A stretch of 64,000 nt of DNA from a virus. Positions 12,146 through 49,895 of the stretch are shown piece by piece. The stretch lies in the IMG/VR virus record IMGVR_UViG_3300048546_000154, positions 1 to 64,000 of that record; one strand, written 5' to 3'. The notes beneath the pieces are model-generated. The model was not told the origin of the DNA. It saw only the letters and a program-made list of their open reading frames with translations, and did not search any database. The number at the start of each line of letters is the position of its first letter. Position 1 is the stretch's first letter. Made by a program: the position numbers and the translations under genes.

Positions 12146-12164
12146 AGAATAAGAGGAAATAAAA

Positions 12165-34064: not shown

Positions 34065-34616
34065 ATGGCAATATCTATATTAGACCCATTAGTACAAAAA
34101 CAAGGCAACACCCGAAAATCCGGTGCGTGGTATCGTAAGGCTGTCGGCAGTATAGCTGACAAAACACAGGCAAGAGCATTAATGAGAGCAGGTAACTTAA
34201 TCAGTAGACCTTCTCAAGGACGATTAAATCTATTTTTTTATGACCCGAAATTTAAGAAAACACTACCTTATTACGACACATTCCCTTTAGTATTACCATT
34301 AGAACCAATCCCAGGAGGATTTATTGGAATGAATTTCCATTACTTACCACCTGCAATGAGATTTACCTTACTAGCAAGAATGGATAAATTTCTGTCTGGC
34401 GATATGATAAGACCTAATACGAAATACCAAGTATCTTATGATAGTGTGAAGAATATACCTATGGTTAAACCAACTCTTCATAAATATCTTTATAGTAATG
34501 TGAGAAGTCAGTTTTTGCGTATCAATGCGTCTGAAGCTGCGGTTGCAGTATACTTGCCAGTACAACAATTTAGAAAACAACCAGCGACTACCGTTTGGCG
34601 TAGAAGCACAAGATAA
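34065..34616 (+). CDS. gp2-like DNA end protector family protein
   Basis: 183 residues. FYDPKFKKTLPYYDTFPLVLPLE and GGFIGMNFHYLPP form the pattern annotated in T4-like cyanophages as DNA end protector (gp2). If correct, it binds the ends of packaged DNA and completes the head. The assignment is by recalled motif; the family name in cyanophages is itself only weakly tied to T4 gp2. Head-completion gp4 lies 6 kb downstream. Confidence 0.65.
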   Translation: MAISILDPLVQKQGNTRKSGAWYRKAVGSIADKTQARALMRAGNLISRPSQGRLNLFFYDPKFKKTLPYYDTFPLVLPLEPIPGGFIGMNFHYLPPAMRFTLLARMDKFLSGDMIRPNTKYQVSYDSVKNIPMVKPTLHKYLYSNVRSQFLRINASEAAVAVYLPVQQFRKQPATTVWRRSTR

Positions 34617-34820: not shown

Positions 34821-35198
34821 ATGGCTTATTCAGATAAAGTAATTGACCATTACGAAAACCCTCGTAATGTAGGCACGATGGACAAAGATAGTCCTAATGT
34901 TGGTACAGGTCTAGTAGGGGCACCTGCTTGTGGTGATGTTATGAAGTTGCAGATTGAAGTTAAAGATAATACTATTACAGACGCTTGTTTTAAAACATTT
35001 GGTTGTGGTAGTGCAATTGCCTCATCATCATTGTTAACAGAATGGGTAAAAGGTAGAACTTTAGATAGTGCAGTAGAGATTAAGAATACAGACATTGCTG
35101 AAGAACTTGCGTTACCACCAGTTAAGATACATTGTAGTGTGTTGGCTGAAGACGCAATAAAGGCAGCGATAGAAAATTATAAAAGTAAGGATAACTAA
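34821..35198 (+). CDS. iscU: iron-sulfur cluster scaffold IscU
   Basis: 125 residues, close to bacterial IscU over the full length (MAYSDKVIDHYENPRNVG start). All key residues are present: Cys37, Asp39, Cys62, His104 and Cys105, and the LPPVK motif (98-102) recognised by the HscA chaperone. It assembles [2Fe-2S] clusters from sulfur supplied by a cysteine desulfurase, here presumably the host IscS. AGGAG upstream; its stop overlaps the baseplate gene gp54 (TAATG), so both are late. Confidence 0.95.
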   Translation: MAYSDKVIDHYENPRNVGTMDKDSPNVGTGLVGAPACGDVMKLQIEVKDNTITDACFKTFGCGSAIASSSLLTEWVKGRTLDSAVEIKNTDIAEELALPPVKIHCSVLAEDAIKAAIENYKSKDN

Positions 35199-36157
35199 TG
35201 GCAATATTACGAGGCGGTAAAAGAATAGGTGGTATGGATATCAGAATTGGTATTCCTAGAGACCGTTCTATGGATAATATCAACCGAGACCCAAGGTTCA
35301 GAGCAAAAGCAGGTGCAAATCCTGAAACTACAATGGGTAGATTTCAATCCTATGTAAATGAATCAGAAGGTTTTGCTCGTAAGGCTAGATACTATGTTGT
35401 CTTTGAACTACCAACAGGTGGTAAGATGGCAGGTGGTTTTGATTTTGGTGGTGCAGTACCTGGTGGTGATGGTATGGTACACGGTAGTGAAATAAGAAGA
35501 TACGCTAATGAAGCAAACTTACAAAGAAGAGTACAAGCGTTTGTATCAGAAGTGAATATGCCTGCTAGAACAATGAAGACTAAATCAGTAAAACACAATG
35601 GTCCACCAAGACACATTGTTTATGATTATGAAATGGCTGATGTATCAATGACATTTTACACAGACAAATATATGAGAGAAAGAATATTTTTTGAATTGTG
35701 GCAAAAGACTGCCTTTTCAAATATAACTCACAACTATGCGTACTATGATGAGTATGTAGCACCAATTAATATATTACAATTAGGTTCTGACCCAGGAGCA
35801 CAAGAACGAGACGGTGCAACATATGGTGTTAGATTGTGGGAAGCATATCCAGTTTCAGTAGGTGATGTATCGTATGCTGCCGGTTCAAATGAAGTACAGA
35901 CATTTACGGTACAATTTAAATATAGATACTGGTTAAACTTTGCAATAGACCAACAAAACAAATTTCAGATTGGTCAATCGCAATTTAATAATCCTATCGT
36001 TAAAGAAGGCGATAGTGGATTTTTAAGTAAATTACCACCTGAATTGAGAAGAGCAGGTGAAGGTGTACTGAATAACTTGAAGAGGTCGTTTCCAATCGGT
36101 AAGATTACTGGTGGAAGAGTTATGCCTCCGTTTAAATTCGGACCCCTAAATATATAA
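35198..36157 (+). CDS. 54: baseplate tail-tube initiator gp54
   Basis: 319 residues. The protein has the tail-tube-like pattern MPARTMKTK ... YEMADVSMTFYTD ... WEAYPVSVGDVSY ... VQFKYRYW, as in T4-like gp54, which sits on the baseplate hub and starts tail-tube polymerisation. gp48 (40737) has the related role of cap. The N-terminal 45 residues are basic and Arg-rich. It overlaps IscU by one base. gp48/gp54 swap is the main alternative. Confidence 0.72.
   Translation: MAILRGGKRIGGMDIRIGIPRDRSMDNINRDPRFRAKAGANPETTMGRFQSYVNESEGFARKARYYVVFELPTGGKMAGGFDFGGAVPGGDGMVHGSEIRRYANEANLQRRVQAFVSEVNMPARTMKTKSVKHNGPPRHIVYDYEMADVSMTFYTDKYMRERIFFELWQKTAFSNITHNYAYYDEYVAPINILQLGSDPGAQERDGATYGVRLWEAYPVSVGDVSYAAGSNEVQTFTVQFKYRYWLNFAIDQQNKFQIGQSQFNNPIVKEGDSGFLSKLPPELRRAGEGVLNNLKRSFPIGKITGGRVMPPFKFGPLNI
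36145..36152 (+). promoter_or_regulatory. possible late promoter variant CCTAAATA
   Basis: CTAAATA is a late-promoter form known in T4-like cyanophages. Here it overlaps the last codons of gp54, 33 bases before gp26, with AAGGAG in between. Weaker support than the TATAAATA sites. Confidence 0.4.
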
Positions 36158-36185
36158 TAGTAAATAATAAGGAGATGATAACAAT

Positions 36186-36920
36186 ATGGCTTTACCAAAA
36201 ATTGAAGTCCCAACATATAAGTTAACTCTACCAAGTGAAGACACGGTAGTAGAGTTTAGACCATTTCTGGTCAAAGAAGAGAAGATATTAATGCTAGCGA
36301 TGGAAGAGAAGAATGACGCTCAAATGAAAGCCGCCGTTAGAGATTTAATTAACTCTTGTACTTTCGGAAAATTAGAAGTAACCAAACTACCACTATTTGA
36401 CATAGAATATTTGTTTTTAAATATTCGTGCAAAGTCAGTAGGTGAGATTGCGTCTTTTAAAGTTTTCTGTCCAGAAGATAAGGTTACACTTATACCTGTT
36501 GATGTAGACTTAACAAAGGTTGAGGTACAGGTTGATGACGAACACACAAATAAGATAGTATTAGACGAAGAAAGAAATCTTGGTATTAGTATGAACTATC
36601 CTAACATTGACACTATTCCATTGGGCGTAGATGAAGATATGAATACAGAAGCAATTTTTAAAACAATTGTTGAATGTATTGACTACATCTATGAGGGGGA
36701 ACAAGTGCATAAAGCGAAAGATAGTACAAAGGCTGAACTAATTGATTTTTTCAATAATTTAAATACCAATCAATTTAAACTAATCAGAAAATTCTTTGAC
36801 ACAATGCCGAAGTTAAGGCACGAAGTCAAGGTTATAAATCCTAAAACAAAGAAAGAGAGTGTGGTTACACTCCAAGGACTATCTGATTTTTTCGTATCTG
36901 CCTCTCCCACAACAACCTAG
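36186..36920 (+). CDS. 26: gp26 baseplate hub / tail assembly protein
   Basis: 244 residues. FRPFLVKEEKILMLAMEEK and the later FDIEYLFLNIRAKSVGE match the T4-type gp26 family of myoviruses. In T4 it is needed to build the baseplate hub and is now thought of as an assembly chaperone. Near the end the gene carries TTTTTTC, and an overlapping -1 frame continues to 37096. This suggests a short form (244) and a frameshifted long form (about 303 residues). Confidence 0.85.
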   Translation: MALPKIEVPTYKLTLPSEDTVVEFRPFLVKEEKILMLAMEEKNDAQMKAAVRDLINSCTFGKLEVTKLPLFDIEYLFLNIRAKSVGEIASFKVFCPEDKVTLIPVDVDLTKVEVQVDDEHTNKIVLDEERNLGISMNYPNIDTIPLGVDEDMNTEAIFKTIVECIDYIYEGEQVHKAKDSTKAELIDFFNNLNTNQFKLIRKFFDTMPKLRHEVKVINPKTKKESVVTLQGLSDFFVSASPTTT

Positions 36921-37096
36921 AGGCGTACTTTGAGACTAACTTTGCATTAATGCAACATCATAAGTATAGTCTAACAGAATTGGATTCTCTATTTCCTTGG
37001 GAAAAAGAGGTTTATGTTTCTTTACTGGTTAAACACATTAAAGAAGAAAAAGAAAAAGCAAGAAGAGATAATATGGGCAAACCTGGTACTAAATAA
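36893..37096 (+). CDS. -1 frame extension of gp26 (programmed frameshift product)
   Basis: Slip site T-TTT-TTC at 36887-36893, in the correct phase of gp26. The -1 frame has a TGA at 36884-36886 immediately before it and no ATG until far inside, so it cannot be started independently in full. After the slip it encodes 67 residues including LMQHHKYSLTELDSLFPWEK, a conserved segment found after gp26 in T4-like phages (recalled, sometimes called gp51-like). The layout equals the G/GT tail chaperones of lambda. Confidence 0.75.
   Translation, partial: RICLSHNNLEAYFETNFALMQHHKYSLTELDSLFPWEKEVYVSLLVKHIKEEKEKARRDNMGKPGTK
37088..37095 (+). promoter_or_regulatory. possible late promoter variant ACTAAATA
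   Basis: CTAAATA type motif across the stop of the gp26 extension, 29 bases before the gene at 37125, with AAAAGGA between. Chance cannot be ruled out. Confidence 0.35.
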
Positions 37097-37124
37097 TAGC
37101 AGGTGAGTTATAACAAAAGGATTT

Positions 37125-37586
37125 ATGAGCAAAGATGAATTAAGAGTATCAGATAATACTGCTATCAGTATGCCTATGAGGAACTTGTTAGCTATAATAG
37201 CAGCAGTTTCAGTTGGTGTTTGGGCATACTTTGGAGTATTAGAAAGATTAAATCGTATAGAAACTAACGAAGAGTTATTAAGAAAAGACCTTGAAGGAAG
37301 TACATTACGAATAGAGACAGAATTAAATAAGAATAGTGAGTTTAGAATTAAGTGGCCAAGAGGTGAATTAGGTTCACCACCTGCTGATTCCGAACAATAT
37401 ATGCTTATTGAACACATTGCTGGACAATTAGATGAACTAGATGAGAGAATGAATAAAATGTTGAACAATGGTGTTAATATAACAAGACTACAAGAGGATG
37501 TAAAAATCCTTAGAGAAGATGTAGAAAAATTAAAAGATAGTAATAGAAGTATTATCTATCAAAATGGAAACGGTAAGAAGGAATAA
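37125..37586 (+). CDS. membrane-anchored coiled-coil protein, conserved in marine T4-like phages
   Basis: 153 residues: a transmembrane helix (about 20-38), a coiled coil, the conserved segment IKWPRGELGSPPADSEQYML, and a second coiled coil. I recall this WPRGE-PADSEQY motif from cyanophage virion-region proteins. Start-stop overlap with the next gene (TAATG). Function unknown. Confidence 0.65.
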   Translation: MSKDELRVSDNTAISMPMRNLLAIIAAVSVGVWAYFGVLERLNRIETNEELLRKDLEGSTLRIETELNKNSEFRIKWPRGELGSPPADSEQYMLIEHIAGQLDELDERMNKMLNNGVNITRLQEDVKILREDVEKLKDSNRSIIYQNGNGKKE

Positions 37587-37891
37587 TGAAAAACATTTTA
37601 GCAATAATATTTGTTGTCTTACTTGTACCTAGTGTGTATGCAGCCAAGTTATATACTGGCGGTGAGAAATACGAACAAGATAAAGTTGTTGCGTTAACAC
37701 TTACTCTAAACGGTAAGTTAATAGAATGGGTTTACAAAGAAAATATAGGTCAATGCTTAAAATCTAAAAGAGTAGCGGCTAGAGAAGTAGGTGGCGAAAG
37801 AGTTATATTTGAATGTAGACTAGTAAAAGCATTATTACAAGAAGATAAACAAGCAAAATACGGAATAAGATTACTTAAAATTTTAGACTAA
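37586..37891 (+). CDS. secreted protein, related to the next gene
   Basis: 101 residues with a signal peptide (about 1-20, ending VYAAK). The mature part has IGQCLKSKRVAAREV and FECRLVKA, a spacing of two Cys that recurs in the next gene, so the two may be paralogues. Late, exported, not recognised. Confidence 0.6.
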   Translation: MKNILAIIFVVLLVPSVYAAKLYTGGEKYEQDKVVALTLTLNGKLIEWVYKENIGQCLKSKRVAAREVGGERVIFECRLVKALLQEDKQAKYGIRLLKILD

Positions 37892-37898
37892 AGGATTT

Positions 37899-38354
37899 AT
37901 GAACAAACTATTAACAATAGCATTTTTATTTTTGATGATGTACGCCCCAGCATATGCTGATTGCACAGGTTGTGGTGATGACGGACACCAAGTTTGTCCT
38001 ATTGAAAAGAAACATACACATATTACGGTGATGACAGAAGAACATAAAACTTCATCATCAACTCCTGAAGAAGGTGTCGTATTCGCAGTATGTATTTTTG
38101 AAATAGATGAAGCTACAGGTGAAAGAAAACTAATTGACCACAGAGCAAGTGATAATTTAATGGACTGCTTGAAGAATAAAAGACAAGCAGAAAAAGATTA
38201 TAGAGAGAAAAAAGACAAATCAGGTGGTGTATTTAATATGACTTGCGATAAAGTTAACGCAAAAGTAGAAGTACAAACAGACGGCTCTTGGAAGATATTA
38301 GAGATTACAGGCAGACACGAACAAGCATATATTAGAAAAAAAGTTTACGAATAA
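37899..38354 (+). CDS. secreted Cys-rich protein
   Basis: 151 residues with a signal peptide (about 1-20, ending AYADC). The mature part opens CTGCGDDGHQVCP, a Cys/His cluster that could bind metal or form disulfides, and later has LMDCLKNKRQAEKDY and MTCDKVNAKVE, like the preceding gene. Late and exported. Function unknown. Confidence 0.6.
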   Translation: MNKLLTIAFLFLMMYAPAYADCTGCGDDGHQVCPIEKKHTHITVMTEEHKTSSSTPEEGVVFAVCIFEIDEATGERKLIDHRASDNLMDCLKNKRQAEKDYREKKDKSGGVFNMTCDKVNAKVEVQTDGSWKILEITGRHEQAYIRKKVYE

Positions 38355-38369
38355 TCGTAGGAGTTAAAA

Positions 38370-38693
38370 ATGGCTGAAGAGATAAAAAAAGAAGTTAAGG
38401 TTGCAGAACCTAAACAGAAAATACAAGTTGATTTAGAAGTAGATACTTCAATCAAAGACCTAGGTATTAATCCATATGCAAAGATAATTCATATGGCAAG
38501 AGCAGTTGACGCTTGGAGAATATTTCCAAGATTGTTTTTGACCGTTTATATTGTTTTATTATACAAATGTGTAATTTGGTATATGGACTTACAGGCACCT
38601 ACTATGGAACAAAGTGGGTTAATCAGTATCGTTGTTGGTGCTGGTGCAGCTTGGTTTGGTCTATATACTGGTTCAAGTAAAAATAAGAAATAG
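38370..38693 (+). CDS. two-span membrane protein, holin candidate
   Basis: 107 residues: a charged N-terminal 45 residues, then two hydrophobic helices (about 52-72, RLFLTVYIVLLYKCVIWY; about 83-101, LISIVVGAGAAWFGLY) and a basic end. I recall a conserved family in T4-like marine phages with this layout. Size and topology allow a holin role, but there is no direct evidence; no other holin is obvious here. Confidence 0.55.
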   Translation: MAEEIKKEVKVAEPKQKIQVDLEVDTSIKDLGINPYAKIIHMARAVDAWRIFPRLFLTVYIVLLYKCVIWYMDLQAPTMEQSGLISIVVGAGAAWFGLYTGSSKNKK

Positions 38694-38703
38694 GAAATAA
38701 GAA

Positions 38704-40260
38704 ATGGCTGCCACTACACTTTCAAACGCTACACAAGACGAACTACTTTCCATATTCAAAGTAATATCAAAGAAGTCTATCCAATCAGTTGATGGACTAG
38801 TTAAGTCAACTCAGCCTAAATTAAACAAACTTGTTGCAGAAACTATTGACGCATTTAGAGATACACCTAGAAGTGTAAATGATGTGATGAATAAACTTGT
38901 TAATAGAATGGGTGAATTAAACTATTCTGTTGAAGACTTGACAAGAGGTATGGAAAAGGCAGACATATCAGAAGATATGAAATCTCTACAAGACGCATTG
39001 CGTAATAGAGAACAGATGATTGTTGTTGCAGAAAAAGAAGCAAGTGAATTAAGAAAACAAGGTGTAGCAGTACAAGTAAAGATGACCGAAGATGGTGCAA
39101 AGGCAGTTGTACTATCAACAAAACAATTGCAGATGGAACAAGAAAAACTTGTACAATCTGAAAAGAGAATAGTATCAAACGAACAAGAACTATTAAAGAA
39201 AACAAAGAATTTACACAAACTAGATGAAACTAGTAGACAAAAAGAAGAAACGCTTATCAAAGAGAAGTCAGTACTACTAACAAAAGAACGAGAAGATTTA
39301 GACGCAAAAAGAGAAGCACTTGGTGGCGATACTTCTGATAACTTTGGTGGTCAAGGTGGTGATATGATAGACCCACGAGGTATGTTTGCTGGTATATCTG
39401 ATACCTTTATGGGTATCAAAGATAGTATTACAGGACCATTTGTAGAACTTGGCGATATGGCAAAAAGAATGGGTACTTCATTTATGAACTTCGGTAAAGC
39501 AATGAAGACACCAATCAAATCATTAAAACTATTTGGTGCAAGTCTTATGATTTCAGTTGTACCTATGTTGTTATGGGCACTTGGTATATTAGCATTGATT
39601 GCTGTAATTGCAATTGCAATATTTAAATTTCACGCAATCAAAGACGCTATCATAGACGCATATAACTATCTAGGAGATGTCTTTAGAAAGTTTGGTGAAT
39701 ACTTAATGGAGAAATGGAATGCGTTTGTAGGTTATATAGGTGGACTAAAAGATTCATTAATGGAGAAGTGGGATAACTTTACACAAGGTATATCTGATAT
39801 GGTTGATTATGTAAGTACTCTAGGAAGTAGAATATGGGATAGTATTAAAAGTGCATTTGGTAGTATCGGTGATTATATATCAGACATATTTAAAAGAATC
39901 TATAATGGTTTCGTAGATAAGTTTGGTAAGTATATAGGTATGGAAAAAGTTGCATTGTCAAGTGATAAGGCAACAATGACAGAACCTAAAAGTATAGAAG
40001 GTGAAGCACAAAAAGCAGAAATACCTGAAGAGAAAAAGAAATACTTTAGTGGCACAGATAAGGCAGACCAAACAGGTAATGCAAAAGCACTAAAAGAAGC
40101 AGGTGATACAAATACAGCAAACTCATCTAACAATGTTGGTATAACACAAGACAACAAACAAATTATAACCACAAACAATGCAGAATCACAATTTGTAGGT
40201 AGTGGTAATAGAAATCCAGACCCAGCGTCTAAATGGGAAAGACTAACAGCAACAACTTAA
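38704..40260 (+). CDS. tail tape measure / gp29-like hub protein
   Basis: 518 residues: an N-terminal helical domain, a long coiled coil (about 85-215), a strongly hydrophobic block (about 278-308, MISVVPMLLWALGILALI) and amphipathic helical repeats with Trp (EKWNAF, EKWDNF, SRIWDSI). Hydrophobic plus coiled-coil composition and position between gp26 and gp48 fit the T4 gp29/tape-measure slot. It sets tail length and passes into the host membrane. It is short, suggesting a short tail if this is the whole tape measure. Confidence 0.65.
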   Translation: MAATTLSNATQDELLSIFKVISKKSIQSVDGLVKSTQPKLNKLVAETIDAFRDTPRSVNDVMNKLVNRMGELNYSVEDLTRGMEKADISEDMKSLQDALRNREQMIVVAEKEASELRKQGVAVQVKMTEDGAKAVVLSTKQLQMEQEKLVQSEKRIVSNEQELLKKTKNLHKLDETSRQKEETLIKEKSVLLTKEREDLDAKREALGGDTSDNFGGQGGDMIDPRGMFAGISDTFMGIKDSITGPFVELGDMAKRMGTSFMNFGKAMKTPIKSLKLFGASLMISVVPMLLWALGILALIAVIAIAIFKFHAIKDAIIDAYNYLGDVFRKFGEYLMEKWNAFVGYIGGLKDSLMEKWDNFTQGISDMVDYVSTLGSRIWDSIKSAFGSIGDYISDIFKRIYNGFVDKFGKYIGMEKVALSSDKATMTEPKSIEGEAQKAEIPEEKKKYFSGTDKADQTGNAKALKEAGDTNTANSSNNVGITQDNKQIITTNNAESQFVGSGNRNPDPASKWERLTATT

Positions 40261-40688
40261 AATTTACCTAAATCGTCTTCTGTAAATATTTTAAACTCCC
40301 AACCTTGCATTTCGCAATAACGAACAGCGGCACCCCATTTAGCTCTATTTTTAATATATGCTAAACTCTCATTGATATATGCTCTAGTCTTACGAGCTCT
40401 AGGTTTAGGTTTCTTTGTGAAGGCCTTAGGTTTGATTTCAATTATATACTTACCTTTGTTGGTAACTATGAAGAAATCAGGAAAGTAATTATGTAATTTC
40501 TTGGTCACAGGATTACGATAACGAATAGCAATCTCTTCACTACCCCAATGTGTGATACCTTCATTACGGTCGCAGTAAACCATAAATCTTCTCTCCCAAT
40601 TAGAACGATAGACGACTTTATCAGGATTACCTAGATATTTGTCTTTGTTTTGAGGTTTGTATCTACCTTTATAACTTGCTGTTGCCAT
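40257..40688 (-). CDS. 4: head completion protein gp4
   Basis: 143 residues on the minus strand. YKGRYKPQNKDKYLGNPDKV, then VYRSNWERRFMVYCDRNE, YFPDFFIVTNKGKYIIEIKPK: the last part is a PD-(D/E)XK nuclease-like core (PDF...EIKPK), as in T4 gp4/gp50, needed to finish the packaged head. It has its own leftward late promoter at 40728-40735 and AGGAAA before its ATG. It ends four bases inside the tape-measure gene. Confidence 0.9.
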   Translation of the reverse strand: MATASYKGRYKPQNKDKYLGNPDKVVYRSNWERRFMVYCDRNEGITHWGSEEIAIRYRNPVTKKLHNYFPDFFIVTNKGKYIIEIKPKAFTKKPKPRARKTRAYINESLAYIKNRAKWGAAVRYCEMQGWEFKIFTEDDLGKF

Positions 40689-40700
40689 TACTATTTCCTG

Positions 40701-40708
40701 TATAAATA
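40701..40708 (+). promoter_or_regulatory. late promoter TATAAATA for gp48
   Basis: Exact TATAAATA 28 bases before the gp48 ATG, with AAGGA between. It overlaps the leader of the leftward gp4 transcript. Confidence 0.75.
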
Positions 40709-40727
40709 TTAGTATAATTCATAAGGA

Positions 40728-40735
40728 TATTTATA
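40728..40735 (-). promoter_or_regulatory. late promoter TATAAATA for gp4 (minus strand)
   Basis: TATTTATA on the plus strand is TATAAATA read leftwards, 39 bases before the gp4 ATG. It lies between the gp48 ribosome site and the gp48 ATG, so the two late promoters face away across each other's leaders. Confidence 0.7.
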
Positions 40736-40736
40736 T

Positions 40737-41921
40737 ATGGGATATACAAACAAAATAAGCTCTGTTATCAAAGGTCGTATTAATTCAGGAACAAATGCTG
40801 TAAAAGGTTTTGTTGATGGTCTTGCAGGCGATATAACATCACAAATAGACAACTTCAGCAATCAGTTTACTGGTGCAGAAAATACAGAAGCGACAAAAGC
40901 AAAAGCACGACAGATTTTAAACCAATCACCACTAGAGATAGGTTCAGGTGACGCAATGCAAGGTAGAGTCCGTTCCAGAATTAGTTGGGGGCAGATATAT
41001 TATCCAGAAGAAACAGGTATGTTAGATGAAGGTCATTATGTTATATTTGATATTATTGAAAACAGAAAAACATCTTATGGTAGTAATATGAAGAGAATAA
41101 TAGAAGTACCAGCAGATGATGACGCAGAAGCAAATCGTAATGCTTTTGCAACAGCAGATTCAGCACCTGCTCCAAAGACAACGACAACTAGAAAGGCAAG
41201 AGAAATGTCTTCTGGTATTGGTCAAGGTGGTTCACATACACATACAAGAATTAGTGATACGGTGTGTTTATATACACCTGCCGAAGCTGCAAAATTCTCA
41301 TACAAAGCAAACTATGAAAACTTAGCAACTGGTCTTGCCGGTCTTATGGCGTCTAGTATGGAAGCAGGTAAAGATATGTCTTTCAAAGAAGCAATGATTG
41401 ACGGTGGTGGTGCTATGATAGAAAGAGTATTAGGAGGTGCAGTAACCGAGATTGCAAGTGCATTGCCTGGTGTTGGTGATGTAAGAGGTGCAATAGACAA
41501 GTCAATGGGTAGAGCATTAAATCCATTTAACGAACAAGTGTTTAGAAGTGTACCATTTAGAGAGTTTAGTTTTCCATTTACATTTGCACCAAAGAACCAA
41601 AAAGAAATGTTAAATGTAGAAAAGATTATCAAGTTATTTAAATTTCATATGTTACCTGAATTTAGTAATAAAACTAAATCAGCATTTTTATCGCCATCTG
41701 AATTTCAAATAACTTATTACTATCGTGGTAAGTCAAACGATTATATACCACAGATTTCTCGTTGTGTAATGACAGGTATGGATGTAGACTATGCAACAGA
41801 AGGAACATTCCATACATTTAGAGAAGATGATAGAGGAGCTGCACCTATTACAACAACAATGACTTGTACATTTGCAGAAACAGAAATTATGACTAAAGAA
41901 ACAATCGCTAAAGGATATTAA
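40737..41921 (+). CDS. 48: baseplate tail-tube cap gp48
   Basis: 394 residues. The segment WGQIYYPEETGMLDEGHYVIFDI is the gp48 pattern (edge strand before a tail-tube-like domain), followed by a Gly/Ala-rich membrane-like middle (about 185-250) and the tube-fold end PFREFSFPFTFAPKNQKEM, GMDVDYATEG. It caps the hub and joins the first tail-tube ring, together with gp54. Confidence 0.8.
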   Translation: MGYTNKISSVIKGRINSGTNAVKGFVDGLAGDITSQIDNFSNQFTGAENTEATKAKARQILNQSPLEIGSGDAMQGRVRSRISWGQIYYPEETGMLDEGHYVIFDIIENRKTSYGSNMKRIIEVPADDDAEANRNAFATADSAPAPKTTTTRKAREMSSGIGQGGSHTHTRISDTVCLYTPAEAAKFSYKANYENLATGLAGLMASSMEAGKDMSFKEAMIDGGGAMIERVLGGAVTEIASALPGVGDVRGAIDKSMGRALNPFNEQVFRSVPFREFSFPFTFAPKNQKEMLNVEKIIKLFKFHMLPEFSNKTKSAFLSPSEFQITYYYRGKSNDYIPQISRCVMTGMDVDYATEGTFHTFREDDRGAAPITTTMTCTFAETEIMTKETIAKGY

Positions 41922-41924
41922 TAG

Positions 41925-42434
41925 ATGTATTTTTCAAGTTTTCCACTTATACTATATGATATGAAAGGTGACCAGAAATCAAAACTGGCAACTAACATAA
42001 TCAAAAGAGTAAAGGTAAGAGAGAAAGTATTAGACGCAGCTATGCTGTATCAAAAATACTTTGTACAACCAGGTGAGAGACCAGAAGATGTAGCATTTAA
42101 CCACTTTGGTAAATCAGAATATCACTGGATTATATTGTTGACAAATGGTATATCAGACGCATACTATGGTTGGCCTATGAACTATAATGAATTTGAAACC
42201 TTTATCAAAGACAAGTATACAAATTCAGAAGCAATACATCATTACGAAAAGAAACAAACAAGTGGACCTACAGATGTCCATATAGAATGTATGAGTACAG
42301 ATGTAGGTGCTGTATCTGTATCAAATAGAGAGTACGAACAAAGAATACAAAACGATATAAGCGAAATTAAGTTGTTAGACCAAGGATATCTATCAACATT
42401 TTTAGATGAGTTTGATAAACTGATAGGTGAATAA
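41925..42434 (+). CDS. 53: baseplate wedge subunit gp53
   Basis: 169 residues. MYFSSFPLILYDMKGDQKSK at the start and EYHWIILLTNGISDAYYGWPM are hallmarks of T4-like gp53, which links the wedges of the baseplate and has a LysM-like start. Length is close to the family. It directly follows gp48 and overlaps the hub gene by one base. Confidence 0.9.
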   Translation: MYFSSFPLILYDMKGDQKSKLATNIIKRVKVREKVLDAAMLYQKYFVQPGERPEDVAFNHFGKSEYHWIILLTNGISDAYYGWPMNYNEFETFIKDKYTNSEAIHHYEKKQTSGPTDVHIECMSTDVGAVSVSNREYEQRIQNDISEIKLLDQGYLSTFLDEFDKLIGE

Positions 42435-43885
42435 TGTACAGCAAATTAAAAACCGATGACTTGAAAAAGGCCGGTGACTATACACTATCTGAAATAGTAG
42501 TGCATAGTAGAAAGTCTTTTGATGGTTCAAGTAAAGCAAAGAAGACGGACATCACAAGTCTTGTCGCAGAAATTAATATTTACGAAGATATAAACGAGAA
42601 GAACTTATCTGGTCAGTTAGTTATATCTGATAGTACAGGTCTTCCTAATCATATGCCATTAACTGGCAATGAACTCTTATCATTTAAACTAGGTACACCA
42701 GGTTCAACTCGTTATTACGACTTTGAAAAACATCCTATGGTTATCTATAAGATAGGTAGTAAACAACCACATAATCCTAGGTCACAATTCTATGTACTAT
42801 ATTTCTGTAGTAAAGAACAAATTACAAATCAAACCTGTAAGGTAGAGAGACCATTTGCTGGTGCAATATCTGATATGATATCCTCTATTGCATTGTCTGA
42901 ATTAGGAACAAGTAAAGACATTATAATAGAAGGAACAAAGAGTAGTCGTAAGTTAATTGTGCCAAGATTTAGACCATTTAAGGCAATAGAATTTTTATGT
43001 GCTCAAGCAGAATCTGCTACATTTAATAACACAGGATTTAAATGGTACGAGACAGCAGATGGATTTCATTGTCGTAGTTATGAAAATATGATGGCAGTTG
43101 GAATAGATAGTACAAGACCAAACAATGGTTACTTTAAACCTACAATGGCAGGTACAACAAGAAACAAAGGTGACCGTGATGTTACCCACGAAATGCAGAC
43201 TATTTCTCATTATGAAGTCATAGAACAATTTAATCTTATGCAACTATTAGGTATGGGTGGTGTCGCAAGTAGAGTATTAAAGACAGACTTGTTTAATAAA
43301 ACATTTTCAACTTCCGACTTTGATTACGAAGAAAATTATAGTAAATCTCACCATACTGAACACGATGGTAATGGCCAGAGACAAGGCGATAAGAAGATAT
43401 TACCTGATTATCCATTTAGAGATAACAAACCATTAACAGCATTTGCAGACGGAACATTTTTTAACTCTTCTGAAACAAGTATGCAGTATGATGGATATGA
43501 ATCCGTATCGCCAGAAAACGCAATGCAAAATAGAATAGCACAAGAAGTAGCATTAGAATCATTTAAGGTAAGAATAGAAGTACCTGGTTACACAGGATTA
43601 TCAGTAGGAGAAATGATAGGACTAGAGATACCTAGATATGAAAGTATAAGTGTTGGTGATAAAGACCAAGACCAAGCATTAAGTGGCAGATACCTAGTAA
43701 GTAGTATTATTCATAAAGTAATGCCTGGTAGAAGTTACCACTCAATGACGGTTGAATGTATGAAAGATAGCGTGAAGACGCCATACTATAATGAAACAAT
43801 TAAAGTAGAAGAAGGTAAGACTGAAAAAGGCAAAGTATTTGAACAAGAGAAATTAGATGAAGGTATCTTTGGGATATTATCGTAG
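42434..43885 (+). CDS. baseplate hub protein, gp27-like
   Basis: 483 residues. VAEINIYEDINEKNLSGQLVI, RPFAGAISDMISSIA, and the later IEVPGYTGLSVGEMIGLEIP, then YLVSSIIHKV are the strands of the gp27/gpD-type hub barrel. It forms the trimeric ring that holds gp5. In cyanophages the same protein is often annotated only as structural. After it the base composition changes. Confidence 0.72.
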   Translation: MYSKLKTDDLKKAGDYTLSEIVVHSRKSFDGSSKAKKTDITSLVAEINIYEDINEKNLSGQLVISDSTGLPNHMPLTGNELLSFKLGTPGSTRYYDFEKHPMVIYKIGSKQPHNPRSQFYVLYFCSKEQITNQTCKVERPFAGAISDMISSIALSELGTSKDIIIEGTKSSRKLIVPRFRPFKAIEFLCAQAESATFNNTGFKWYETADGFHCRSYENMMAVGIDSTRPNNGYFKPTMAGTTRNKGDRDVTHEMQTISHYEVIEQFNLMQLLGMGGVASRVLKTDLFNKTFSTSDFDYEENYSKSHHTEHDGNGQRQGDKKILPDYPFRDNKPLTAFADGTFFNSSETSMQYDGYESVSPENAMQNRIAQEVALESFKVRIEVPGYTGLSVGEMIGLEIPRYESISVGDKDQDQALSGRYLVSSIIHKVMPGRSYHSMTVECMKDSVKTPYYNETIKVEEGKTEKGKVFEQEKLDEGIFGILS

Positions 43886-44062
43886 TTTATTCATTTGACA
43901 ACTACTAGAGAGAAACATAGAGAATCGCCCTCCGAAACGCCCCTCCAAGAGGTCTAAAGGGCATACATTAGGGGTTCTCAAAGCACTCTCCACTCTATAC
44001 GCTGACAATCAGACCAGAACAAATGAGAACAGAATGAGAACAAAACACATAGAAAAAGAGAT
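43886..44062 (+). other. gene-free gap with C-rich segment and direct repeats
   Basis: Contains a TTGACA at 43895-43900 whose -10 (TAGAGA, 43918-43923) is poor, a C-rich stretch (43926-43950), and AATGAGAACA repeated at 44022-44031 and 44033-44042 (11-base period). It has no gene I can support. Composition differs from the surrounding AT-rich sequence. Confidence 0.45.
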
Positions 44063-44314
44063 ATGAAACAATTAAACAACCCTTTACGCAACACATTAGA
44101 AACCATACGCAACACCTACGAGGATGCTCTGTATAGAAGTCATTTACAAAGGTTTTTCAAAGGTACATACGCATTTGACGAACTCAATCATAAAGTCGGC
44201 GTACTAGAGAGAATGACCATACGCATAGCAATATATACAAAACTAATCAAAGATATGCCACTAGCGTGTCATTTGCGTAGGTTTAGAATAAATAGAAAGA
44301 ATAATATAATCTAG
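44063..44314 (+). CDS. small basic hypothetical protein
   Basis: 83 residues, strongly basic and Arg-rich (HLRRFRINRKNN end), helical. Codons such as CGC are used more than elsewhere in the window. AAAGAGATATG upstream. It sits just before gp5 in the atypical segment. Not recognised; possibly acquired with gp5. Confidence 0.5.
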   Translation: MKQLNNPLRNTLETIRNTYEDALYRSHLQRFFKGTYAFDELNHKVGVLERMTIRIAIYTKLIKDMPLACHLRRFRINRKNNII

Positions 44315-44348
44315 TGTTATCTAAAAGGTACAAGTATCGGAAGAAATT

Positions 44349-45407
44349 ATGAGCAAGTATATACATTTTACAGGAATAGTTGAAGACAGGCAAGACCCAC
44401 ACAAGGTTGGCCGTGTGCGAGTACGGTGTTTAGGTTACCATAGTGATAACATTTACACATTACCTACAGCAGACTTGCCGTGGGCACAATGCGCTTTACC
44501 TACGACTGCCGGAGGCATATCAGGCCTGGGTCAGTCGCCAACCTTTTTGGTAAAAGGAACTTGGGTACACGGATTCTTTAGAGATGGAGAGCAGGCGCAA
44601 CAACCAGTTGTTCTTGGCGTACTCCCAGGAAGGCCTACCGAGTATTCTTCAAGGTATTACTCAAAGGCAGGCTATGATGGCTCGGGTATCTATCCTAAGT
44701 ATATTAATGAAACAGATACAAATAGGCTAGCGTCTAGTATAACAGATAATCCGTCTCTTGTCAACTTAATTCGTACAGATACAGAAATAAAAGATGTGGC
44801 GACTGCTGACTTTAACAGCAGAACCAATGCGGACAATAGTGTAATGGCGGCGTCTGACGGAGATACTTGGTCACAACCGACTCTTGCATACGCTGCTCAG
44901 TATCCATATAATAAGGTAACTGAAACGGAAAGTGGACATATACAAGAGTTTGACGATACGCCGGCCGCTGAGCGAATACACTTTCGCCATAAGGTAGGTA
45001 CATCACTAGAGTGGACAGCAGACGGTAATCAGATTAATATAATAAAAGGCCACTCATATAGAATGGCCGTTGGTTCAGATAAGACTTACATAGAAGGCAA
45101 TAGTGATATAACAATAGACGGACGCCATAAGATATACATTAACAAGTCTGCTACATTAAACAACCACTATGATATACAAGTAGGTGCTAATGCAAGCCTT
45201 AATATACAAGTAGATACTGGCGATGTCAATGTAGTGACCAGAGTAGGTAAAGTCAATGTCAATGCAGGTGGTGATTACAACCTCAAAGTAGGTGGTAACT
45301 ATACGCTAAGTGTAGATGGTTCGCATAGTGAAACAATCGCAGGTACTCGTACAGAAACGGTAACAGGCGATAACACAAAGACCGGCAAGACAATCAATCT
45401 AAACTAA
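44349..45407 (+). CDS. 5: baseplate central spike gp5 (no lysozyme domain)
   Basis: 352 residues: an N-terminal OB-fold (about 1-110, with GIVEDRQDPHKVGRVRVR and WVHGFFRDGE), a linker, and a C-terminal triple beta-helix (about 225-352) with repeats such as GSHSETIAGTRTETVTGDN. T4 gp5 has a lysozyme between these; here the linker is about 100 residues with no lysozyme motif. A separate PAAR tip is encoded at 49874. Codon use is visibly more GC-rich than in gp53 or gp6. Confidence 0.85.
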   Translation: MSKYIHFTGIVEDRQDPHKVGRVRVRCLGYHSDNIYTLPTADLPWAQCALPTTAGGISGLGQSPTFLVKGTWVHGFFRDGEQAQQPVVLGVLPGRPTEYSSRYYSKAGYDGSGIYPKYINETDTNRLASSITDNPSLVNLIRTDTEIKDVATADFNSRTNADNSVMAASDGDTWSQPTLAYAAQYPYNKVTETESGHIQEFDDTPAAERIHFRHKVGTSLEWTADGNQINIIKGHSYRMAVGSDKTYIEGNSDITIDGRHKIYINKSATLNNHYDIQVGANASLNIQVDTGDVNVVTRVGKVNVNAGGDYNLKVGGNYTLSVDGSHSETIAGTRTETVTGDNTKTGKTINLN

Positions 45408-45509
45408 AAGGCCTACCGACTTCTCAAAAACCTGTAGCTAAAAGGGCCTATTATATCCAGGTCTTGGCTCTTAATCTATAAATGCAATAGACTATACTAA
45501 ATATATTTT

Positions 45510-45689
45510 ATGATATTTAACCTATATAAGAAACGGCCGACTTCAGGAGGACGCTCATACAAAGAACTTATTAAGTCTGTATGGTGGTTGTTCTTTACAT
45601 TTCAACTAGCAAAGGGTCTTCTGTGGATCCTAGTGATTTATCTAGGCTTTGACTTTGTGAATTTTTTTCGGAGTTTTTTTTCGGGATAG
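45510..45689 (+). CDS. possible small membrane protein (antisense overlap)
   Basis: 59 residues with one or two hydrophobic helices (SVWWLFFTFQLAKGLLWILV) and a basic start. No clear ribosome site. Its last 95 bases are antisense to the leftward gene at 45595-45786. A TATAAATG lies 34 bases upstream. Either it or the leftward gene may be the real one. Confidence 0.35.
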   Translation: MIFNLYKKRPTSGGRSYKELIKSVWWLFFTFQLAKGLLWILVIYLGFDFVNFFRSFFSG

Positions 45690-45786
45690 AGTCGTCTATC
45701 TTATTCACTCTTATAGATAGGTTCATTATGTCGTTAGCGATTTCATCTAACTTCTGCATTACATCATCATTATTATAATACGCCAT
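45595..45786 (-). CDS. small early protein, leftward
   Basis: 63 residues, hydrophilic: a short coiled coil (about 8-35, VMQKLDEIANDIMNLSIRV) and a Ser/Lys/Asn-rich tail. It has a consensus early promoter (45823-45851) and GAAAGGAAAT before the ATG, which is good support. An early gene isolated in the late block. Function unknown. Confidence 0.6.
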   Translation of the reverse strand: MAYYNNDDVMQKLDEIANDIMNLSIRVNKIDDSIPKKNSEKNSQSQSLDKSLGSTEDPLLVEM

Positions 45787-45822
45787 AGTGTTGTATTTCC
45801 TTTCATTGGTTATTATAAGTCT

Positions 45823-45851
45823 ATTGTACTACATTGTCGGATACTTGTCAA
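45823..45851 (-). promoter_or_regulatory. early promoter, leftward
   Basis: On the minus strand: GTGC, TTGACA (45851-45846), 17-base spacer, TACAAT (45828-45823). The leader of about 30 bases has a ribosome site. Confidence 0.8.
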
Positions 45852-46162
45852 GCACTTTCTTTTTACGCTAGCGTTTGACAATCTTATACATAAGTGTGTG
45901 AAAACTCCAGAGAATGCTATAGAGTCAGCGTGGCGACACATTTAAAAACATAGAGAACATTTAGAGAACACTCATAGACTAATCTTACCAGGGAGAGGGC
46001 GACTCTTTGTATCGGAGTTATAGGGGCGAATCTCTATGTTATCTCTTTGTTTAGTTTTATGTAAGTCTCTTGTATAAATATTAGTATTCGTTCAACCAAC
46101 AATGGTCGGAAGTAAGGCAATCGCCTGAAGGAACGCACCTAACTTTAATCAAGGAGGGTGTT
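45852..46162 (+). other. gene-free gap with palindrome and repeated elements
   Basis: Holds the perfect palindrome ACGCTAGCGT (45865-45874), TAGAGAACA repeated at 45951-45959 and 45962-45970 (11-base period), two related GGGCGA-TCT elements (about 45997-46008 and 46024-46036), and the late promoter at 46073. A TTGACA at 45875 lacks a -10. No gene is supported. Confidence 0.5.
46073..46080 (+). promoter_or_regulatory. late promoter TATAAATA
   Basis: Exact TATAAATA followed by TTAGTA, as at 40701 and 50164, 82 bases before the gene at 46163. It is the only visible promoter for the A-type iron-sulfur carrier downstream. Confidence 0.7.
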
Positions 46163-46357
46163 ATGAATAGACATACTTATTTACTCTCCACTTATAGAAA
46201 GAAGAAAGACATAGAGCGAAAAGAAAAGGCTCTTGCGTCTTCTCGTATAGAAGTGGATATAAATGGTAAAGGTACTTCTGGTTACACTATCAACAATGGT
46301 GTTAACAAAGGCAAAGTACTTGGACATAAAGTAATAAAATCTACCGATAATTGGTAA
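46163..46357 (+). CDS. small basic hypothetical protein
   Basis: 64 residues: a basic helical start (YRKKKDIERKEKALASS) and a glycine-rich end (NGKGTSGYTINNGVNKGK). AAGGAGGG upstream. It is followed by a hairpin and then the A-type carrier. Function unknown. Confidence 0.55.
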   Translation: MNRHTYLLSTYRKKKDIERKEKALASSRIEVDINGKGTSGYTINNGVNKGKVLGHKVIKSTDNW

Positions 46358-46364
46358 TAGTTTG

Positions 46365-46382
46365 GGGGAGTTAAATCTCCCC
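46365..46382 (+). terminator. hairpin between the small gene and IscA
   Basis: GGGGAG (46365-46370), loop TTAAAT, CTCCCC (46377-46382). The sequence after it (TAAATAAT) is not a T-run, so it may be an mRNA-protecting or weakly terminating hairpin. It lies 11 bases before the next ATG and hides where a ribosome site would be. Confidence 0.4.
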
Positions 46383-46393
46383 TAAATAATAAT

Positions 46394-46720
46394 ATGAGTA
46401 ATTTAATAAACTTAACAGATAACGCAATAACACATTTACAATCTTTAGCAAAAGAACATAGCAAAAAATATGTTCGTTTAGAAGTTAAAGGTGGTGGTTG
46501 TGCTGGTTTTAAGTACGACTGGAAGTTTGAAGATGAAGCAGACAACAATGATGAGGTTATCTTACACGATAACTTTACATTATTAGTTGATAAGTCTAGC
46601 ATATTAATGTTAGCAGGTATGACTATAGAATATCGTAAGGAGATATTTGGGTCATTTTTAGAATTAAAAAATCCCAACGCAACAAGTAGTTGTGGTTGTG
46701 GAGAAAGTTTTGGAGTATAA
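46394..46720 (+). CDS. A-type iron-sulfur carrier (IscA/ErpA family)
   Basis: 108 residues. GGGCAGFKYDW with Cys36 and SCGCGESF with Cys100 and Cys102 give the three-Cys signature of A-type carriers, at almost the same positions as bacterial IscA. It receives clusters from a scaffold such as IscU (encoded at 34821) and passes them to target enzymes. Whether it is IscA, SufA or ErpA cannot be told by eye. No clear ribosome site precedes it. Confidence 0.93.
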   Translation: MSNLINLTDNAITHLQSLAKEHSKKYVRLEVKGGGCAGFKYDWKFEDEADNNDEVILHDNFTLLVDKSSILMLAGMTIEYRKEIFGSFLELKNPNATSSCGCGESFGV

Positions 46721-46721
46721 A

Positions 46722-46964
46722 ATGAATTATGATAGAGTAGAACAAGAAACAGACCTCTATAATCGTGTTCCTGAAAGTAAAGATTATCAGTATCAAATGG
46801 AGTTGTTAAAGAAACAATTACAAATGATATTAGATGATGAAAGAGGAACAAGTGATTTAGATAAGAAGATTGCAATATTAGAAAAACAAAATAAATTATT
46901 ACAATTAAAAAATGAGTTTCTTTTACACACATTAAAAGAACACAGCATATTGACACTAGATTAA
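46722..46964 (+). CDS. small coiled-coil protein
   Basis: 80 residues: a short N-terminal segment, then two Leu/Lys/Glu helices (about 28-75) that predict a coiled coil. TTGGAG before ATG 46722 supports this start. It lies two bases after the A-type carrier, so they are co-transcribed. The next early promoter lies in its last codons. Function unknown. Confidence 0.6.
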   Translation: MNYDRVEQETDLYNRVPESKDYQYQMELLKKQLQMILDDERGTSDLDKKIAILEKQNKLLQLKNEFLLHTLKEHSILTLD

Positions 46965-46978
46965 ACTTATTGTATAAT
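46950..46978 (+). promoter_or_regulatory. early promoter for the oxygenase/Nfu unit
   Basis: TTGACA (46950-46955), 17-base spacer, TATAAT (46973-46978): exact consensus, without the GCTTGACA extension. It gives the Nfu gene early expression although it lies in the late block. Confidence 0.8.
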
Positions 46979-46998
46979 AAGTGTGTAAGGAAAACAGA

Positions 46999-47796
46999 AT
47001 GACAAAGTATAGAGATAAAACCGTATTACCACAAATGGTTCACTCGTCTATTAATGGCGAAGTATTATATCCATTTGGTCCACCAGTCTATCGTTGTGAA
47101 CTAGACGAAAAGATTGTTGATATGTTGATTGAAGAAGGTCAGCGTACAAGAGACGATAAAAAATTAGACCATAGACATCAACTTGCTGGCAATATGAAGC
47201 AAGGAACTAGCGTTCTTTATCCGTTTAATAACGGTAATAACAAAATTAGAAATCAAGCAGACCAAGCAATCGTACAAAAAGTATTTGAATTTTTTGAAAT
47301 ACTACAATCTAACTATGGTGAAGGTTGGCCTAACATATCAAAAATGATGATGGGACAATCTGGTGGTATGGGTGCATTACGATTACAACAACTATGGATT
47401 AACTTTCAACAAGCAGGTGATTTTAATCCTTTACACGACCACGGTGGTCTTTTTAGTTTTGTTGTGTTTGGTGATATAGATGATAAGATATTTACAGAAG
47501 GCGTACCTACAACTAACGCCAATTCAGCAGGTCAACTAGTATTTCATTATGGTGAAAAGATAACTCAATTACAAATGAATAGTTTTGCTGTTAAACCATA
47601 TAAAGGTTTGATGTTTGTTTTCCCAGCTGCATTAGAACATCAAGTAGCACCTTATTGGAAACAATACGAAAGAATTAGTATAAGTGGTAACTATGTACTA
47701 GAACATAATCAACCACAAGCAAATATCAATCCTGTTAAATTAGATTTACAAGATGATAAGATACCAGATATGATGATGAAAGACCCAACTCAATGA
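46999..47796 (+). CDS. putative 2-oxoglutarate/Fe(II)-dependent oxygenase
   Basis: 265 residues. The cupin-like core has NPLHDHGGLFSFVVFGDI (His146 and His148), then GQLVFHYGE, and HQVAPYWKQYERISISGNYVL, whose His and Arg fit the distal iron ligand and 2-oxoglutarate anchor. This type is common in T4-like marine phages; substrates are unknown. ATG 46999 has AAGGA upstream and follows an early promoter. It lies between two iron-sulfur genes, which may be meaningful. Confidence 0.75.
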   Translation: MTKYRDKTVLPQMVHSSINGEVLYPFGPPVYRCELDEKIVDMLIEEGQRTRDDKKLDHRHQLAGNMKQGTSVLYPFNNGNNKIRNQADQAIVQKVFEFFEILQSNYGEGWPNISKMMMGQSGGMGALRLQQLWINFQQAGDFNPLHDHGGLFSFVVFGDIDDKIFTEGVPTTNANSAGQLVFHYGEKITQLQMNSFAVKPYKGLMFVFPAALEHQVAPYWKQYERISISGNYVLEHNQPQANINPVKLDLQDDKIPDMMMKDPTQ

Positions 47797-47981
47797 TAAA
47801 AGAATATCTAAAAATTATAGGTCTTGGTTTACTTGCAATAATATTTCATTGGAAGACTATTGCATTTTATCTATTTACAGCAGGTGCTGTTGTCTTAATG
47901 TTTTTTGACCAAGGTATAGGACCAGCACTTATGGTTATACCAATAATGTATTTTTTAAGATTTATAGGAAAATTTTTATGA
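47793..47981 (+). CDS. small two-span membrane protein
   Basis: 62 residues, almost wholly hydrophobic, with two to three short helices (IIGLGLLAIIFHWKTIAFYLF). Overlaps both neighbours by ATGA. Located between the oxygenase and Nfu. Function unknown. Confidence 0.6.
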   Translation: MIKEYLKIIGLGLLAIIFHWKTIAFYLFTAGAVVLMFFDQGIGPALMVIPIMYFLRFIGKFL

Positions 47982-48274
47982 CAACTACAACTGAAACACA
48001 CGAAGAAACAATTAGAAAAATTAAATTTCATTTAGATGATAAAGTAGCACCTAGTGTTGCAGCTCACAATGGTAAGATTGAGTTTATTTCGTTTGATGAA
48101 GATGGCACATTAAAGTTATTAATGGCAGGAAGTTGTGCTGGGTGTGCAATGTCTCAACTTACTTTAAAACAAGGAGTTGAAAGTATGATGAAACATTATT
48201 GTCCAGAAGTTAAAACTATAATATCAGAAGATGATACTACAGCTGCCGAACAAGGTTACACACCATTTGCATAA
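47978..48274 (+). CDS. Nfu-type iron-sulfur cluster protein (NifU C-terminal domain)
   Basis: 98 residues. The domain has HNGKIEFISFDEDGTLKLLM then GSCAGCAMSQLTLKQGVE with the CxxC at Cys53/Cys56, the signature of Nfu/NfuA C-terminal domains, which carry a [4Fe-4S] cluster to targets. There is no A-type-like N-terminal half as in NfuA, so it is a single-domain Nfu. It completes a set with IscU and the A-type carrier. It overlaps the membrane gene by ATGA. Confidence 0.9.
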   Translation: MTTTTETHEETIRKIKFHLDDKVAPSVAAHNGKIEFISFDEDGTLKLLMAGSCAGCAMSQLTLKQGVESMMKHYCPEVKTIISEDDTTAAEQGYTPFA

Positions 48275-49686: not shown

Positions 49687-49895
49687 TGGAAGGTAAATTT
49701 GTTGTAAAAATTAACAATAAACTTCACATCTATACTCAATATGATGAAATTCCTAATGAGATAGGTGCGGTTATATCTTTTGAGCCTAATTATCCTAGTC
49801 CACCACATACAGAAGAACAACATAATTACATAGAAACCTTTAACGACAAATTAAAACTATTAATGGAGAGAGAATGCCTGCGGTTACGAGGATAG
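49686..49895 (+). CDS. small hypothetical protein, GTG start
   Basis: 69 residues with a beta-like first half (KFVVKINNKLHIYTQYDEIP), a Pro-rich turn and an amphipathic helix. The GTG overlaps the previous stop, and the PAAR gene starts 22 bases before its end. Possibly a chaperone for the PAAR tip; that is a guess from position. Confidence 0.55.
   Translation: MEGKFVVKINNKLHIYTQYDEIPNEIGAVISFEPNYPSPPHTEEQHNYIETFNDKLKLLMERECLRLRG

Follow-up and report, generated by a model that had tools for sequence, protein, structure and literature searches.

What do genes for the assembly of iron-sulfur (Fe-S) clusters do in a phage that carries three of them? The question is raised by the 99,489-base IMG/VR record IMGVR_UViG_3300048546_000154 (G000), of which the first 64,000 bases constitute the window; G000 coordinates continue those of the window. 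Family searches of the window detected T4-like genes (gp32, RNase H, gp5, gp6, gp9/10 and homologues of the baseplate hub and tail tube proteins), and the source is a marine T4-like virus of bacteria. A preliminary description of the window had recognized genes for IscU, an A-type carrier and Nfu, and proposed that they either keep host Fe-S enzymes running or mature a cluster-bearing virion protein. These two purposes overlook the best candidates, four radical S-adenosylmethionine (SAM) proteins encoded on the same contig. As these four cluster-requiring proteins (rSAM1 to rSAM4) are encoded beside a protein with a Cys- and His-containing C-terminal tail, the Fe-S proteins probably feed the virus's own modifying enzymes. 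Our reading, to which we assign a probability of about one half, is that the Fe-S genes are working helpers in late infection, whose main clients are the four radical SAM enzymes, and that these in turn probably act on a virion protein by modifying its tail.

The three Fe-S genes are intact

The Fe-S genes and their immediate surroundings are as follows.

34065..34616, plus strand: gene to the left of the IscU insertion site, 94-95% identical beside empty sites
34821..35198, plus strand: IscU scaffold of 125 residues (TIGR01999 match), an optional insert between the gene at 34065-34616 and the tail tube gene
35198..36157, plus strand: tail tube gene (phrog_45, 124.8 bits), adjoining the IscU site on the right
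46394..46720, plus strand: A-type Fe-S carrier of 108 residues, above the cut-offs of PF01521 and TIGR00049
46692..46964, plus strand: small open reading frame (ORF) within the carrier-Nfu block, without a family match but present in relatives
46981..47796, plus strand: 2-oxoglutarate (2OG)-Fe(II) oxygenase between carrier and Nfu (PF13759, 44.3 bits; phrog_81)
47978..48274, plus strand: single-domain Nfu of 98 residues, above the cut-off of PF01106

We confirmed the three ORFs at the positions previously given, with all of the residues named there and with family cut-offs passed. IscU exceeded the cut-off of its equivalog model TIGR01999 (221.4 bits against 192.4) and harbours C37, D39, C62, H104 and C105 along with LPPVK, which we take to be the HscA-binding motif. 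The carrier scored 70.1 bits with PF01521 (cut-off 26.3) and 109.9 with TIGR00049 (58.8), with C36, C100 and C102 in place, and stayed below the equivalog cut-offs of ErpA (96.3 against 117), SufA (93.4 against 136.2) and IscA (74.9 against 150.6). Nfu scored 76.8 bits with PF01106 (cut-off 27) and contains the CxxC motif (C53 and C56); at 98 residues it did not reach the NfuA model TIGR03341 (58.6 against 269.35).

Relatives in viral contigs numbered at least 594 for IscU and at least 591 for the carrier, and from each of these longer lists the best 80 were fetched. The scan for Nfu picks up close relatives only and provided 21 loci. The key residues and LPPVK of IscU were conserved in all of its 80 relatives, the three Cys residues of the carrier in 79/79, 80/80 and 80/80 of those scored, and the CxxC of Nfu in 20/20, one of the 21 loci being partial. 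Pairwise ratios of nonsynonymous to synonymous substitution rates (dN/dS) ranged from 0.14 to 0.27 in three carrier pairs and from 0.16 to 0.25 in three Nfu pairs; for IscU a single pair gave 0.26, two others being too saturated for an estimate. All three genes are thus intact and under purifying selection. A cysteine desulfurase, which a complete iron-sulfur cluster (ISC) system would include, was not found on the 99,489-base contig, possibly a fragment; the sole PF00266 match fell in a gene for 5-aminolevulinate (ALA) synthase.

Carrier and Nfu are retained together, IscU is not

The preliminary description had combined the three proteins into a scaffold-to-carrier route. Such a route suits each protein, but the three genes do not make one unit. 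IscU precedes the tail tube gene at a distance of 11-13 kb from the carrier and Nfu, and the three are therefore not one cluster. Moreover, seven close relatives (L183, L184, L185, L186, L187, G019 and G020) have an empty IscU site with both neighbours intact. Where IscU is absent the neighbours are separated by approximately 205-215 bases, and an alignment of four of the seven displayed a clean empty site. IscU occupies the site in L004, in L188 and in L003, the last with identical proteins. The empty sites led us to reject both a single operon and a conserved trio. Absence of the set from close relatives with intact neighbours, which had been named beforehand as a result that would speak against it, was observed for the trio but not for the carrier and Nfu, which stay as a pair.

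In L188 (7940-8640) two further small ORFs precede IscU at the same site, which may therefore be a hot spot for insertions; one of the two looks similar, on visual inspection, to the gene at 37125-37586 of the window. Concerning the origin of IscU, the best 80 bacterial matches of a longer list were mostly from Gammaproteobacteria (75-84% identity), and no single donor stood out among them. In a tree of 162 tips the window IscU fell in a phage group, with a support of 0.979 for its grouping with L003-L005 and of 0.803 with two more, and the tree required nine changes between phage and bacterial labels.

The block comprising the carrier, the small ORF, the 2OG oxygenase and Nfu was whole in L186 and partly seen in G019 and G020. 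The gene for the tailed protein described below is found in 18 contigs of this clade, G000 and 17 relatives. Nfu was present in all eight of those that reach about 19 kb or more upstream of the tailed gene, and the carrier in seven of them, the eighth (G031) beginning at Nfu. The A-type carrier and Nfu are thus jointly retained in this clade.

A radical SAM cassette beyond the window

The following genes lie downstream of the window on G000.

66109-66588, plus strand: cupin (PF07883, 30.4 bits against a cut-off of 27.2)
66561-67619, plus strand: rSAM1 (phrog_1802; SPASM model)
67613-68386, plus strand: tailed protein of 257 residues with a C-terminal Cys/His tail
70177-71229, plus strand: rSAM2 (phrog_1802)
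71767-72873, plus strand: rSAM3 (phrog_1802; PF04055)
72863-73315 and 73281-73826, plus strand: two genes with weak similarity to 2OG-Fe(II) oxygenases (PF13640, 19.2 and 25.5 bits, below the cut-off of 27)
74379-75350, plus strand: rSAM4 (phrog_1802)

The four rSAM proteins are rich in Cys, each contains CxxxCxxC, and all match the radical SAM family phrog_1802 with 114-229 bits. With PF04055 (cut-off 29.5), rSAM3 scored 30.5 bits, and rSAM1, rSAM2 and rSAM4 were below the cut-off with 23.3, 22.2 and 26.0, respectively. The SPASM model TIGR04085 was passed by rSAM1 (33.2 against 27), the scores of the others being below the cut-off. The SPASM Cys pattern, CX9-15GX4C...CX2CX5CX3C...C, is present in rSAM1 of G000, and CxxxCxxC along with both SPASM Cys groups was invariant in 21/21 aligned relatives. 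No NCBIfam equivalog cut-off was passed by the radical SAM proteins. From their Cys residues we predict three [4Fe-4S] clusters each in rSAM1, rSAM2 and rSAM3, which deviates by one residue, and two in rSAM4, about 11 in total. Among relatives that reach the region, G021, G022, G023 and G031 each gave four PF04055 matches. Elsewhere, radical SAM matches numbered 22 in L134 (G029, 328 kb) and 15 in L063 (G013, 83 kb).

A structure model of rSAM1 from G023, 95.2% identical to that of G000, had a predicted local distance difference test score (pLDDT) of 86.9 and a predicted template modelling score of 0.86. The model matched anSME best (E value 2.7e-13, TM score 0.72 by query length), followed by the sactipeptide enzyme of structure 5why, which we take to be CteB, and by ChlB, TigE and SkfB; viperin and PqqE were weaker matches.

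A Cys-His tail accompanies the radical SAM genes

The 257-residue protein encoded after rSAM1 ends in CHSSCHSSCHGSRGRR, which follows the pattern CHxSCHxSCHxxRxRR and places three Cys and three His at fixed spacing. All 17 viral relatives share this ending, with Ser/Gly swaps. In an annotated phage collection of 50,697 records, the rSAM1 and rSAM3 queries retrieved the same seven records. In the four jumbo phages examined, the gene following rSAM1 encodes a protein of another size with the same terminal pattern. When seven tails were aligned, three from the clade and four from jumbo phages, the residues C, H, S, C, H, S, C, H and R were invariant.

A scan of viral contigs at the DNA level detected at least 119 stretches with the tail pattern. 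Among the 119 listed, the pattern was in frame in 116, and a stop codon followed immediately in 144/144 in-frame matches. In the other three, the tail was cut by the stretch end (L365), the match was due to chance (L316), or no such reading was found (L303). An rSAM homologue was present in 112 of the 119 stretches and in 111 of the 116 in-frame loci, while the same queries detected no homologue at the control loci, which comprised 120 for gp23, 78 for the hub and 80 each for IscU and the carrier. These counts should not be read as independent, since the 119 stretches include near-identical contigs and clade members and some rSAM queries derive from jumbo-phage cassettes, but the difference from the control loci remains extreme. 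The tailed proteins range from 124 to 309 residues. A second layout was seen in L282, L298, L313 and others, in which two tailed proteins of about 124-140 residues stand in tandem and a more distant rSAM frequently lies some 140 bases from them. For three tailed proteins searched, no NCBIfam family was found even at an E value of 10, and a structure model (pLDDT 37.3) was not used.

The tailed protein of phage Atu_ph07 is gp170. According to excerpts of PMC6102473, coding sequences 170-215 of this phage form a cluster with many virion proteins identified by mass spectrometry, and the numbering given there for gp181, gp198, gp204 and gp215 agrees with the record. As gp170 opens this cluster and the numbering agrees, we consider the tailed protein a probable component of the virion; rSAM1 and the cupin fall within this range as well. 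Searches of PubMed Central full text found no description of the tail system or of virion modification by radical SAM enzymes. Of our results, the tail and its cassette are what will surprise a specialist most, more so than the Fe-S genes. We lean slightly towards the view that many large phages, among them marine T4-like phages and jumbo phages infecting Agrobacterium, Sinorhizobium, Burkholderia and Pseudomonas, use a cassette of radical SAM enzymes, resembling those for ribosomally synthesized and post-translationally modified peptides (RiPPs), to modify the C-terminal tail of a virion protein in the construction of their particles, and that some lineages add Fe-S assembly genes of their own to power the cassette.

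Proposed clients of the Fe-S proteins

We propose that host IscS would provide sulfur and that LPPVK would let host HscA and HscB act on the IscU of the phage. As gene position and the roles of the families suggest, [4Fe-4S] clusters may then pass, late in infection, from the A-type carrier and Nfu to the phage's radical SAM enzymes; without helpers of their own, these enzymes would compete with the host for clusters. The products of the cassette, rSAM1 to rSAM4 with the cupin and the 2OG oxygenase-like proteins, would modify the C-terminal CHxSCHxSCHxxRxRR tail. Possible chemistries are an anSME-like oxidation of Cys, the formation of sactipeptide-like thioethers, or a cross-link of another kind, none of which we favour. 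Nfu has been reported to restore the auxiliary cluster of lipoyl synthase, itself a radical SAM enzyme (PMC9585516, in excerpt).

The idea of radical SAM clients is based on three arrangements: that of this clade, that of G014 and G070, two more contigs that combine IscU, carrier and tail, and that of G003 and G004. In the latter two, near-identical stretches of another lineage, three ORFs overlap at their ends, encoding IscU, a radical-SAM-like protein (26.4 bits with PF04055, which is below the cut-off) and the carrier. The general conclusion had already been drawn for marine T4-like phages. The available sections of Nishimura 2017 (PMC5332604) report A-type carriers in 14 and IscU in six environmental viral genomes, some with radical SAM genes, and suggest that proteins of the host and of the virus alike are served by the assembly proteins; the genes were missing from many close relatives.

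Several observations weigh against such clients. The radical SAM genes lie about 20 kb from Nfu in this phage and do not form one operon with it. Four complete jumbo phages with the cassette and tail gave no match to Nfu or A-type carriers, and were missing from the IscU matches in the phage collection. We also searched 28 tail-bearing contigs, all from outside this clade, out of 32 distinct contigs of at least 50 kb among 80 listed of the at least 119 tail-pattern loci; Atu_ph07 and three clade contigs (G023, G031 and G034) were left out and searched separately. A-type carriers were found in five of the 28, IscU in two and Nfu in none. A comparison set of 21 contigs of at least 17 kb, from 80 listed gp23 loci, contained neither carrier nor IscU, and PF04055 matched one of them against 28/28 tail-bearing contigs; as the gp23 contigs are shorter, the contrasts for carrier and IscU (5/28 and 2/28 against 0/21) are weak. 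The cassette does not need Fe-S genes everywhere, since the jumbo genomes and most tail-bearing contigs are without them. Among 33 records chosen mostly for their Fe-S genes, many of them fragments, 14 had no PF04055 match and 17 none above the cut-off; PF01521 was found in 29 and PF01106 in six, and outside the clade the carrier was mostly without Nfu. Finally, no cassette rSAM was found near IscU or the carrier in the best 80 viral loci for each, which were covered for no more than 10 kb on either side. A search for the T4-type late promoter TATAAATA was uninformative, with 14 matches against 11.6 expected.

The wide occurrence of IscU and carrier genes in viral contigs without a cassette rSAM in those loci would also be expected if the Fe-S genes sustained host enzymes of respiration, or ferredoxin, during infection, and the link to radical SAM genes were a coincidence of large, gene-rich phages. 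The contig further encodes a heme oxygenase, a ferredoxin-dependent bilin reductase and an ALA synthase, enzymes that would depend on the ferredoxin and tetrapyrrole supply of the host, and LPPVK, with the role we presume for it, implies the use of host chaperones. We nevertheless regard upkeep of host enzymes as doubtful, because Nfu, and the carrier where covered, accompany the four radical SAM genes in every tested clade contig reaching both, and because the ORFs of IscU, the radical-SAM-like protein and the carrier overlap in G003/G004.

Maturation of a cluster-bearing virion protein, in which the CHxSCHxSCH tail itself may hold a metal or cluster, is improbable. The lambda tail protein gpL is a precedent for a cluster in a virion protein, and the regular spacing of Cys and His in the tail as well as the place of gp170 at the head of a region rich in virion proteins would suit it. 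The presence of an rSAM nearby in 111/116 tailed loci against 0/120 control loci, in contrast, points to covalent modification, and the jumbo phages have the tail without Nfu or A-type carrier matches. The virion idea of the preliminary description survives in altered form, with a probable virion protein beside the radical SAM genes that is more likely to be their substrate than a holder of clusters. Separate acquisition as passenger or moron genes without a joint role, which the gain or loss of IscU at its site and the nine label changes in its tree would allow, is very improbable, as key residues are conserved in all scored relatives, dN/dS is well under 1, and the carrier and Nfu are kept across the clade.

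Fe-S genes of phages have previously been described as aiding host metabolism or, in general terms, viral Fe-S proteins; the four radical SAM enzymes would be named candidate clients. If the tail is indeed modified, phages would finish their particles by radical chemistry, of which we found no description in the literature searches made, and CHxSCHxSCHxxRxRR would be a simple handle to find such systems in viral sequence.

Other genes on the contig

Beyond the window, G000 95149-97686 (L182:14150-16684) encodes the heme oxygenase (PF01126, 80.6 bits), the ferredoxin-dependent bilin reductase (PF05996, 73.3 bits) and the ALA synthase (TIGR01821, 570.6 bits against a cut-off of 338.55). The locus looks like the three-gene hemO, pcyA/X and valaS cassette described in the available part of PMC11480375. 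Within the window, the minus-strand gene at 40257-40688 encodes a TnsA-like endonuclease domain (PF08722, 66.1 bits) and runs opposite to the surrounding baseplate genes. A PAAR-motif protein (PF05488, 36.4 bits against 27), perhaps a tail spike tip, is encoded at 49874-50161, and the large (PF02867) and small (PF00268) subunits of ribonucleotide reductase at 9779-13268.

Comparison with known systems

The occurrence of several Fe-S genes in one phage is not unheard of. An A-type carrier lies within 2 kb of IscU in 59 of the best 80 IscU loci, and excerpts of two publications describe iscU together with an A-type carrier gene (PMC5332604, and PMC9038755 for HMO-2011-type phages with iscU and erpA). 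We found no report of the two in combination with Nfu, our literature searches not having addressed Nfu in phages by name; as far as could be seen, the trio is a new combination. The marine phages of these publications resemble the present one in gene families and in the patchy distribution among close relatives, and radical SAM genes are mentioned in PMC5332604. In this phage Nfu is added, the carrier and Nfu remain together across the clade, IscU lies apart from the carrier, and the candidate radical SAM clients can be traced to a cassette that also encodes a tailed protein. An Nfu-like domain also occurs in the cyanophages P-SSM2 and P-SSM5, annotated as nifU or NifU domain and about 35% identical to this Nfu over 62 residues, and in four marine single-cell virus records. 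P-SSM2 and P-SSM5 were not among the IscU or carrier matches in the phage collection, judging from those match lists only.

In bacteria, the ISC system, NfuA and A-type carriers provide the same scaffold, carrier and late donor components. The phage differs in that no IscS was found on the contig, that its Nfu is without the N-terminal carrier-like domain of NfuA, and that the carrier stays under the IscA, SufA and ErpA cut-offs.

With the radical SAM/SPASM peptide maturases anSME, CteB and ChlB, rSAM1 shares CxxxCxxC, the SPASM Cys pattern and, according to the structure model, the fold. In contrast to these maturases, the radical SAM genes described here are phage-borne, with several in each cassette, and the presumed substrate is a protein of 124-309 residues rather than a short peptide. 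The His-Xaa-Ser (Hxs) system likewise has His-x-Ser repeats beside several radical SAM enzymes. Matches to HxsB and HxsC were weak and did not reach the cut-offs (32.0 bits against 370 and 30.5 against 267.9, respectively), and we rejected membership in this system. Unlike the Hxs repeats, each His of the phage tail is preceded by Cys, and the tail is strictly C-terminal with an Arg-rich end.

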